This document shows, one piece after another, positions 50,390 through 54,532 of a stretch of 64,000 nt of DNA (the stretch's first letter is position 1; the number at the start of each line of letters is the position of its first letter). The position numbers were made by a program, and so were the translations under genes. The stretch comes from Bryobacterales bacterium. Its GTDB lineage: Bacteria > Acidobacteriota > Terriglobia > Bryobacterales > Bryobacteraceae. The notes beneath the pieces were generated by a model, which had not been told where the DNA came from, ran no database searches, and saw only the letters and a list, made by a program, of their open reading frames with translations. The DNA lies in contig JADLCT010000024.1 of assembly GCA_020847045.1 (NCBI GenBank), positions 1 through 64,000 on the forward strand. Reading direction: 5' to 3'.

Positions 50390-50400
<11 letters not shown>

Positions 50401-51859
50401 CTTCGTTCCCCCCTCCACCAGCGAATATATCCGCGTGCTACCGGAGATCGTGCTTACCATTGGCGGCACGATTCTGATGGTGGCCGAGGGGTTTGCCGGG
50501 GAGCGTCACAAGCGAGGCATGGCGCCGGCCGCGCTCGCGTTCCTTCTGTTCGCGATGGGCGGCGCCGTGCTGGCGGGCATGGATCCGGGACCGGCTTTCC
50601 ACAATCTGTTGATCGTGGACGGCTACGCTACCTTCTTCCGCCTGCTGGTGCTGGCGGTGGGCGTGTTGAGCGTGCTGATCTCGGCCAGCTATCTAACGCG
50701 GGAAAACGCGGATTCAGCCGACTACTATTCGCTGATCCTGTTCTCGCTGTGCGGCCAGAGCCTGCTCGCTTCCGCCAACGAGCTGATCATGGTCTTCATC
50801 GGGTTGGAGATCAGTTCGATCGCCACCTACGTTCTGGCCGGCTTCCTTCGCAAGGATAAGCGCAACAACGAAGCGGCCATCAAGTACTTCCTGCTGGGCT
50901 CGTTTGCCACAGCCTTCCTTCTCTATGGCGTGGGTTGGATCTATGGCGTCACGGGCACCACGAATCTTCAGGAGATCCACCGCTTCCTGAGCAGCCCAGA
51001 AAGCAGCTATTCGCCGCTGCTGATCGGCGCGTGCGCCGCCATGCTGTTTGTCGGATTCGCCTTCAAGATTTCGGCCGCACCCTTTCAGGCATGGGCGCCG
51101 GATGTGTACCAGGGAGCGCCGGCTCCGGTGAGCGCCTTCATGAGCGCCGCCCCCAAAGCGGCCGCCTTCGCCGTCTTCCTGCGCGTGTACTCGGTGGCCT
51201 TCAGCGGGCTGACCGAACGCTGGCAGCCGATTCTATGGGCGTCGGCGCTTGCCACGATGGTGATTGGGAATTTCGCGGCATTGCGACAGAACAACATCAA
51301 GCGCCTGCTCGCCTACTCGTCCGTAGCGAACGCCGGCTATGTACTGGTCGCCGTCGTGGCGCATACGGAAAACGGTGTGGCGGCCGCCATGTTCTACCTG
51401 GCCGCCTACGCGCTGATGAACCTGGGCGCGTTCGCCATCGTGACGCATTATGTGAACAAGGGCGAGCGGAACGCCGGCATCGACGATATGGCGGGCTTCG
51501 CGCGCCAGCAGCCGTTCGCCGCCGCGCTGTTCACCTGGTTCCTGATGTCAATGATCGGCGTGCCGCTCACCGGAGGCTTCTTCGGCAAGTTCTACATATT
51601 CAAGTCGGCCATCGATTCGAACCTCATCTGGCTGGCCGTGCTCGGCCTGCTGAACAGCGCCGTGGCCGCCTACTATTACCTGCGCATCATCGTGGTGATG
51701 TACTTCCACGAACCGGGTGAAGCGGCGCGCGAAACACTTCCCATCCCCGGCGGCATCCGCGTGGCCCTGATTGGCTCGGCGATTGGCGTGCTCATTCTTG
51801 GCGTCTTCCCCTCGGCCGTGCTCGAGTTCGCCAACCGCAGCGCCATGCTGGTCCGATAG
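50390..51859 (+). CDS. nuoN: NADH-quinone oxidoreductase subunit N
   Basis: 489 residues, the proximal antiporter-like subunit. Signatures: MVFIGLEISSIATYVLAGF, FKISAAPFQAWAPDVYQGAP and YSSVANAGYVLVAV. It ends the complex I operon; the next gene, a hydrolase, starts 10 bp after the stop and may be read from the same transcript. Confidence 0.97.
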
Positions 51860-51869
51860 AGGCTGTGTG

Positions 51870-52550
51870 ATGCCGCAAGCTGCACCACCGATCGTGTTTC
51901 TACACGGCTGGTGCGGATCGCCGGTCTTCTGGCAGCCGGTGGTGGATTTTCTGGGGAGCCGCTACCGCGTGCTCGCGCCGCAACTGGCGCACGATGGCTC
52001 GCTTCCCGAGCTTCCCGGGCGCTGCATCCTCGCCGGCCACAGCATGGGAGCAACCCTGGCGCGCCGCCTGTTGCGTCACCGTCCCCAAGGCATCGCCGCG
52101 GCCATTCTTATCGATGGCCACCTGCCCAAGTTTCCGCCCGAGGCGTCCCGGCGCGAAAGCTTTCTGGCTCCTTTTCGCACTGGCTACGAGGTTGCCGCAA
52201 GCCGGTACATTGATACGCTGGCAGGTCCCGCGACGCCCGGCTGGGTGAAAGGAAAGATGTTGGAGACCGAGGCCGGCGCGGGACTCCGGGCGCTGGAATC
52301 CTTGAACGATGCCGATACCTGCGCCTGGCTGGGCACGGAAGAGGATTGTGTGAATGTGCCGGTATGGGCGTTGTGGGCAGAGCCGAGCCCTATGGCGCGT
52401 GCCGGCGGCGAGCATCGCGAATGGATGGGCCGGTGGTGCCCGAACCTGCGCTATGAATGCTGGCCCGGAGCGAGCCACTTCCTTCATCTGGATGAGCCGG
52501 GGCGCTTTACGGCGGGACTGTGCGAATTCCTGGAAGAAGCTGGAATCTAG
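51870..52550 (+). CDS. Alpha/beta hydrolase
   Basis: 226 residues from the ATG at 51870, just after nuoN; the ORF-track start overlaps nuoN. The fold is indicated by the oxyanion loop FLHGWCGS, the nucleophile elbow LAGHSMGATLA (Ser as nucleophile) and a C-terminal GASHFLHLDEPG with the catalytic histidine. The set resembles BioH-type or small esterase proteins, but the substrate is not readable. Its stop shares the four bases CTAG with the stop of the convergent gene. Confidence 0.82.
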   Translation: MPQAAPPIVFLHGWCGSPVFWQPVVDFLGSRYRVLAPQLAHDGSLPELPGRCILAGHSMGATLARRLLRHRPQGIAAAILIDGHLPKFPPEASRRESFLAPFRTGYEVAASRYIDTLAGPATPGWVKGKMLETEAGAGLRALESLNDADTCAWLGTEEDCVNVPVWALWAEPSPMARAGGEHREWMGRWCPNLRYECWPGASHFLHLDEPGRFTAGLCEFLEEAGI

Positions 52551-52786
52551 CCGGTGAGATCAATCAGGCGGCCGGTCAGTTCCTCATCGGTTTCGATCAT
52601 CCTGAGGTTAGCCTCGTAGCTGTGGCGCGCTTCCAACAGGGCGATCATGGAGTCACTCAAGCTTACCTGGTCCGCCGCGGCCCCATCGCTTGCTGACATG
52701 GGCAGCCGCGCCAGTTCCCTGGCGGTCTTTTCCAGTTTTTCTTCCGCGCGACGTAGGCCCTCCAGGCCGATTGGGGTCAGGCTCAT
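52547..52786 (-). CDS. Miniature flagellar rod-like protein (terminal helices only)
   Basis: 79 residues. The start resembles the N-terminal helix of flagellar rod and hook proteins (MSLTPIGLEGLRRAEEKLEKTA), and the end the C-terminal helix shared by FlgB/FlgC/FlgG/FlgE (VSLSDSMIALLEARHSYEAN, then LRMIETDEELTGRLIDL). The central beta domain of these proteins is missing, so only the D0-like coiled-coil halves remain, joined by about ten residues. No flagellar gene is nearby. Its role is unknown; a helical-pair structural or export-related protein is possible. The internal ATG was chosen over the 199-codon ORF, which runs through the divergent gene. Confidence 0.6.
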   Translation of the reverse strand: MSLTPIGLEGLRRAEEKLEKTARELARLPMSASDGAAADQVSLSDSMIALLEARHSYEANLRMIETDEELTGRLIDLTG

Positions 52787-52886
52787 CGACACTGATTCCT
52801 TTGTCTCCTCATCGGCGGGAAAGAGGGCCTCTTGACACGAATCAGGCGGCAACCATCCCTTGTGGCGCGCGATACACTGTAAGGTC

Positions 52887-53629: not shown

Positions 53630-54532
53630 ATGCGGATTGAAAGCTCTGTGGTGCAATTTGGCGTTCAGCGCTCCTACGCCGAGAGCCGCCAGGTGGCGGA
53701 CGAAGCCGTTATACGGCGCAGGATGCGGCCATCCCCGGAGCCGTCTCGGGAGCGTTCCGGCAATGCGGAAGCCTGTGAGGGGAGGCGTTGCCAGCAGGTG
53801 GCCGGAGAGCGCGGCGAAGCAGCCGGTTCGCGCGCCCACCTGGCCAAATTGGTGGCCCGGAGGATGTGGGGTGGACATCATGACGAACAGGGCCCTAGCC
53901 GCCGCGCCGCGGAGTCCGCGCCCCACCGCGAGACGGAAACTTCGGGACGCCCGCGCTGGGAGGTGTCGCTACGGCATCGCGAAGTGTACGAAGAACGCGA
54001 GAACCTGCTGATTACGGCACGAGGAGCGATTCGGACGGCGGATGGGCGGGAGTTCAGTTTTGACGCGGCCTTTTCGCTTGCGAGGAGCTTCCGGGTGGAG
54101 GCAGGCTCGGCCCTAAAGGCCACCGGCGAAGACCAGCAACTGTCCGGCGCCCTGTTTCTCGACCGGGGCGGCGTCTCCCGGCTTCTCGTGAACGACGCCG
54201 ATGGCGACGGGAAGCTGAGCGATCCGGGAGAGGTGTTCGGCTCAGGTGCCGGGGACGGTTTTGGAGAGCTGGCGGCGATGGACGCCGATGGCAACGGCTG
54301 GATCGACGAGGGCGATCCTGTTTTCGGCCGGCTCCGCCTGCGGATGGAAGACGGCGCGCTGGTTGGTTTAGGAGCACTGGGCATCGGTGCGCTCTCCACG
54401 GCTGGGGCAGCGGGTGAGTTCCAGTACAAGAATGAGGCGAACGAACTCGTCGCCGTGGTGCGCAGAAGCGGAGTCTATTTGAACGAAGACGGCTCAGCCG
54501 GGGCGCTGCGGCAAATTGATCTGGTGATGTAG
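53630..54532 (+). CDS. EF-hand calcium-binding hypothetical protein
   Basis: 300 residues starting ATG behind GAGGGGA. The N-terminus (MRIESSVVQFGVQRSY) and long Arg/Glu-rich region are followed by a domain with two EF-hand-like loops, NDADGDGKLSDPGEVFG and MDADGNGWIDEGDPVF, each with Asp/Asn at the calcium positions, and a C-terminal region ending LREIDL-like ALRQIDLVM. I recall similar proteins with a DGxGxID motif in many Gram-negatives, without a known function. No signal peptide is visible. Confidence 0.7.
   Translation: MRIESSVVQFGVQRSYAESRQVADEAVIRRRMRPSPEPSRERSGNAEACEGRRCQQVAGERGEAAGSRAHLAKLVARRMWGGHHDEQGPSRRAAESAPHRETETSGRPRWEVSLRHREVYEERENLLITARGAIRTADGREFSFDAAFSLARSFRVEAGSALKATGEDQQLSGALFLDRGGVSRLLVNDADGDGKLSDPGEVFGSGAGDGFGELAAMDADGNGWIDEGDPVFGRLRLRMEDGALVGLGALGIGALSTAGAAGEFQYKNEANELVAVVRRSGVYLNEDGSAGALRQIDLVM

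Follow-up and report, generated by a model that had tools for sequence, protein, structure and literature searches.

A small protein with only the D0-type end helices of flagellar rod and hook proteins, preceded by a sigma-28-type promoter, in a flagellated soil acidobacterium

To our knowledge, every rod, hook or junction protein of the bacterial flagellum that has been characterised combines its D0 helices with at least one additional region. FlgE, FlgC and FlgG (PF06429, PF00460) comprise 130-450 amino acids, while FlgK (approximately 450-550 amino acids) acts at the hook-filament junction and belongs to the late class in some bacteria. Small proteins are known in this context as well: type III needle proteins are helical hairpins of about 80 amino acids which build a tube without side domains, and FlgM is small and typically linked to sigma-28. 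A further small motility protein is YjfB (PF14070), the gene of which is located with sigma-28 and flagellar genes (PMC11607428). The protein described here, P0001, resembles FlgE, FlgC and FlgG in its C-terminal helix, which passes PF06429, and in an N-terminal helix aligned by profile, but it has only 79 amino acids, lacks a Dc/D1/D2 domain and the NNIAN-T-GF motif, and is encoded outside flagellar clusters behind a late instead of an early promoter. Its C-terminal helix is likewise similar to that of FlgK (TIGR02492, E 0.0042 for P0001 and 2.4e-8 for the best member of its family), whereas FlgK is far longer and separately present in the same genome (contig C97). YjfB shares the small size, yet just one of 42 family members matches it, at chance level (E 0.086), and FlgM shows no sequence match to the family and is present as a distinct protein in the genome.

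The gene of P0001 occupies positions 52547-52786 on the minus strand of the window, i.e., the whole stretch of 64 kb that was analysed, with the start codon ATG at 52786-52784, the stop codon at 52549-52547 and the translation MSLTPIGLEGLRRAEEKLEKTARELARLPMSASDGAAADQVSLSDSMIALLEARHSYEANLRMIETDEELTGRLIDLTG. The initial annotation had read it as a 79-residue protein made only of the end helices of rod proteins with a linker of about ten residues, and the reading frame on the minus strand, Pfam, profile alignment and AlphaFold2 agree with this description. The quoted C-terminal stretch VSLSDSMIALLEARHSYEAN is present and belongs to the half which matches Flg_bbr_C (residues 41-77, 27.9 bits, E 1.7e-6), above the curated Pfam cut-off of 23 bits. 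Matches in NCBIfam were weak and solely to the C-termini of FlgK, FlgC and FlgE; scoring no more than 17 bits where the cut-offs are 102 or higher, P0001 is not an equivalog of FlgC, FlgE, FlgG or FlgK. The proposed resemblance of the N-terminus to the first rod-protein helix was too weak to be recognised in the single sequence, and none of the 42 family members gave a Pfam match to PF00460 (Flg_bb_rod) at E 0.1; still, the profile of the 42 relatives aligns positions 4-30 to FlgE. This N-terminal alignment is weak, with the NNIAN motif replaced by A-x-RIAR. Judging from these sequence comparisons, P0001 is related to the rod/hook family and yet deviates from its membership features, namely the Flg_bb_rod match, the middle domain and the equivalog score.

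Structure prediction by AlphaFold2, which had been suggested as a check, gave two helices with a linker of about 11 residues, the middle domain (Dc/D1) being absent. The predicted N-terminal helix (residues 4-27, positions 52706-52777, minus strand) resembles the first helix of FlgE/FlgG in the profile alignments, and the predicted C-terminal helix spans residues 39-78 (positions 52553-52672, minus strand). The model of P0001 reached a pLDDT of 68.3, and a relative from genome G085 was predicted as a two-helix hairpin with helices at residues 2-27 and 39-74 (pLDDT 87.8, pTM 0.65). A fold search with Foldseek revealed no significant match for the hairpin, because hairpins are generic and not distinguishable by this method; one match, which was not significant, was to the structure of a Shigella needle complex (TM 0.61, E 5.7). 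Of the rod/hook architecture, P0001 has the D0-type end helices alone.

A protein search of 61 genomes revealed 15 carriers of related proteins, and the profile built from these first 15 members yielded about 42 full-length stand-alone copies in 151 genomes, the next matches being ordinary long genes of the rod/hook/FlgK type. The alignment of the 42 members (A2; 66-92 amino acids, the shortest one cut by a contig end) features the N-terminal consensus M-x(5)-AL-x-GL-x(2)-A-x(3)-L-x(3)-A-x-RIA, followed by a variable linker and D-x-VDLS-x(3)-V-x-LL-x-A-x-N-x(3)-AN ... LDLLG. Many members keep AN-x(5)-T-x-DEM, a motif conserved in the C-terminal helix of rod/hook proteins, and 32 of the 42 match Flg_bbr_C in Pfam at E 0.1 or better. 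Against the PDB, the A2 profile matched FlgE (whole-sequence E 9.5e-9), FlgC (2.9e-6) and FlgG (2.4e-4), and in FlgE positions 4-30 pair with the first helix and positions 35-75 with the last 40 residues. Applied to the flagellar regions retrieved from the own genome and from G001, the profile matched only FlgG, FlgE, FlgC, FlgK and FlgF; the C-terminal matches were clear, while each N-terminal match was weak by itself but always at the correct end. The homologue search proposed initially was therefore productive, as it gave 42 relatives and profile matches that were nearly all flagellar rod/hook proteins.

The reading frame is real and not a chance occurrence, since 42 homologues with full-length frames exist across species and since P0001 and its nearest homologue, in G002, differ by a dN of approximately 0.19 against a dS of approximately 1.04 (Nei-Gojobori count). 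The resulting dN/dS near 0.19 indicates that the family is under purifying selection. Full-length frames are kept in dozens of genera, and more distant members were found in other families of the Acidobacteriota, among them L156 with a perfect promoter. The family is absent from more than half of the flagellated relatives and its sequence diverges fast, so that it is dispensable for having a flagellum. A contig scan with P0001 alone found nothing, and with another member only the own record of that member, while a tblastn search of plasmids with the family consensus gave only weak matches, among those inspected mostly full-length FlgE, FlgG and FlgC. A solitary protein of 108 amino acids on a Methylobacterium fujisawaense plasmid (L173, NZ_CP155006.1:20070-20396), situated among non-flagellar genes, was rejected as a family member, as it is a FlgC-like paralogue keeping the NLANA motif and not D0-only. 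Databases contain short proteins annotated merely as "flagellar basal body rod C-terminal domain-containing", and the one that was checked was FlgC-like. Another short frame (89 amino acids) with a strong Flg_bbr_C match (59 bits) occurs in G005 (C307:12313-12444). Literature searches among open-licence papers, using the Pfam names and acidobacterial flagella, revealed no description of the family.

The host is a flagellated soil acidobacterium. Its other contigs harbour FliF (E 1.4e-81), true orthologues of FlgC, FlgE, FlgF, FlgG and FlgK and three flagellin-type matches; FlgM is encoded at G000:C97:62497. Hence the statement of the initial annotation that P0001 occurs without a flagellar locus applies to the window, but not to the genome, which has FliF, Flg genes, FlgM, flagellins and two FliA-type sigma factors. 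Two proteins of this genome (C54:27565-28224 and C75:50961-51626) lie above the FliA/WhiG cut-off, so that the promoter type may be common to these two related sigma factors or divided between them. Among 61 genomes (G000-G060), stand-alone relatives of P0001 were present in 18 of 40 FliF-positive and in 0 of 21 FliF-negative genomes (Fisher p 9.5e-5), a test which ignores phylogeny, with FliF-negative genomes coming mostly from one sister group. The co-occurrence with FliF is thus supportive of a flagellar link, short of independent proof, and the presence in non-flagellated relatives which had been considered was not observed among the 21 FliF-negative genomes. In one genome, G011, a family member occurs together with a flagellin and a FliF gene with one internal TAA, while a Flg_bbr_C match and FlgM were not found there; its flagellar system is perhaps decaying or incompletely assembled.

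The gene of P0001 is preceded by a sigma-28 (FliA)-type promoter, TCAA-N15-GCCGATGA, at positions 52809-52835 on the minus strand. With a score of 16.9 in the flagellin-promoter matrix, this site (TCAAGAGGCCCTCTTTCCCGCCGATGA, 52835-52809), 22 nt upstream of the gene, is the best of its kind in the 64 kb and the only one scoring at least 14 on either strand of the window. A probable Shine-Dalgarno sequence, AAAGGA, was read from the sequence at 52797-52802 (minus strand), and an alternative GTG start exists at 52792-52790; AAGGAATCAGTGTCGATG is conserved in the G002 homologue. According to PMC2859248, the E. coli sigma-28 consensus is TAAAGTTT-n11-GCCGATAA, and transcription starts 6 bp downstream of the -10 octamer. 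The P0001 gene itself has a promoter of the TAAA-N15-GCCGATAA type which marks the sigma-28 (FliA) regulon; GCCGATAA recurs upstream of family members, and the same motif is present in most relatives. In many cases, TCAA-N15-(C/G)CCGATAA was likewise found at flagellin genes of these genomes, approximately 60-135 nt upstream of the domain match.

For quantification, a scoring matrix was built from 20 flagellin sites and applied within 120 nt upstream of the genes, neighbouring open reading frames serving as controls. Scores of at least 10 were reached by 32 of 42 family members versus 6 of 295 control genes (p 5e-30). As the flagellin sites had been picked with a pattern influenced by the family, the count was repeated using nothing but the E. 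coli consensus: sites agreeing with it at no fewer than 10 of 12 positions occurred in 27 of 42 members and 1 of 295 controls (p 5e-28), and in 9 of 28 flagellins. In ten members (L107, L111, L114, L116, L118, L120, L123, L124, L130 and L131), the ATG follows exactly 7 nt after the -10 octamer, so that a leader of about 2 nt and thus a near-leaderless mRNA is predicted. The P0001 gene differs from those ten by a short leader with AAAGGA, and the flagellin promoters of the same group are located much further from the coding region than in the ten. The reading of GCCGATAAG near the start as coding for "ADK" in a longer protein was rejected, because the -35 element TCAA at a spacing of exactly 15 nt is conserved too and because several members have no upstream start codon, the frame being lost in L008.

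The convergent neighbour of the P0001 gene encodes an alpha/beta hydrolase (51870-52550, plus strand), the stop codon of which overlaps that of the P0001 gene by a few bases; it is preceded by nuoN (50390-51859). G002 (same genus), G030 and G004 share this position beside nuoN, and in G006 the gene is nearby, with other members located elsewhere. Neighbour comparison revealed no flagellar cluster around the family gene at the members examined. The tie of the P0001 gene to the flagellum is regulation, not location, and the sigma-28 promoter, the flagellar co-occurrence and the D0 architecture together mark it as very probably a late flagellar gene, one that lies away from the flagellar clusters.

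P0001 can with high confidence be regarded as a late flagellar gene product with D0-only architecture. Rather than forming a separate filament system, it probably serves the flagellum as a previously undescribed late accessory part or as a modulator of export. In the favoured account, FliA would turn on the P0001 gene along with flagellin once the hook has been finished and FlgM has left the cell. P0001 would then be exported via the flagellar type III channel, as suggested by its D0 helices and late promoter, and these hook-like helices would slot into the helical lattice of the axial structure, close to the tip of the hook or to the hook-filament junction, where the protein might act as a spacer, plug or adaptor without a surface domain. 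That P0001 is an exported axial part of the flagellum, as the D0 helices and the late promoter suggest, falls slightly short of an even chance. The account as a whole, i.e., a small late-class (sigma-28/FliA) flagellar accessory protein that is exported and axially inserted, stands at about even; the patchy presence and fast divergence of the family, the missing NNIAN-type motif, the location outside flagellar clusters and the fold search with no significant match count against it. A more tentative suggestion is an undescribed axial class comprising D0-only late subunits, which would be exported after hook completion and join the tube of the hook or filament as a minimal insert or plug, often from a near-leaderless sigma-28 mRNA.

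The main rival to this axial reading is a cytoplasmic modulator of export or assembly, the D0 helices of which would mimic a rod/hook substrate. By binding to a chaperone or to the export gate, it would contribute to shutting down rod/hook export after the late genes have been switched on. The late promoter, the small size, the mimicry of substrate ends without a structural domain and the dispensable distribution all fit this possibility; nevertheless, the kept hook-like motif of the C-terminal helix suits lattice packing at least equally, and we consider such a role rather unlikely. The initial annotation had suggested a different helical structure, considered here as a D0-only polymer similar to a type III needle and unconnected with the flagellum. 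Size and hairpin do resemble needle-type subunits, as in the non-significant Shigella match, but the family shows no sequence similarity to needle subunits in the comparison of the A2 profile with the PDB, no secretion genes were found beside the P0001 gene, and the strict flagellar co-occurrence in the survey as well as the FliA-type promoter make a non-flagellar structure improbable. Even less probable is a second FlgM-like exported anti-sigma factor, which would share the size, the late promoter and the two helices: a true FlgM gene is located elsewhere in this genome and present in most flagellated relatives, and none of the 42 members matched PF04316 (FlgM) in Pfam. The least credible reading, a functionless decaying fragment or duplicated end of a rod/hook gene, could account for the loss of all middle domains, the patchy presence and the variable sequence, but is largely refuted by conservation, namely the low dN/dS, the full-length frames in dozens of genera, the promoter kept in most members and the conserved place beside nuoN.

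A conserved late D0-only protein would reveal what D0 helices do alone. In a phylum with little-studied flagella, it could be a component of flagellar assembly, or a brake on it, that has so far gone unrecognised. With the sigma-28 promoter, the idea lends itself to direct testing, and the promoter offers a handle for other dispersed motility genes in Acidobacteriota. On the plus strand of the window, a neighbouring open reading frame of 300 amino acids (53630-54532, MRIESSVVQFG...) contains DxDxNG stretches that resemble calcium loops and may be another late motility gene: in three orthologues (G000, G002 and G035), CCGATGA or CCGATAA precedes the ATG by 7-9 nt, although the -35 element is weak.
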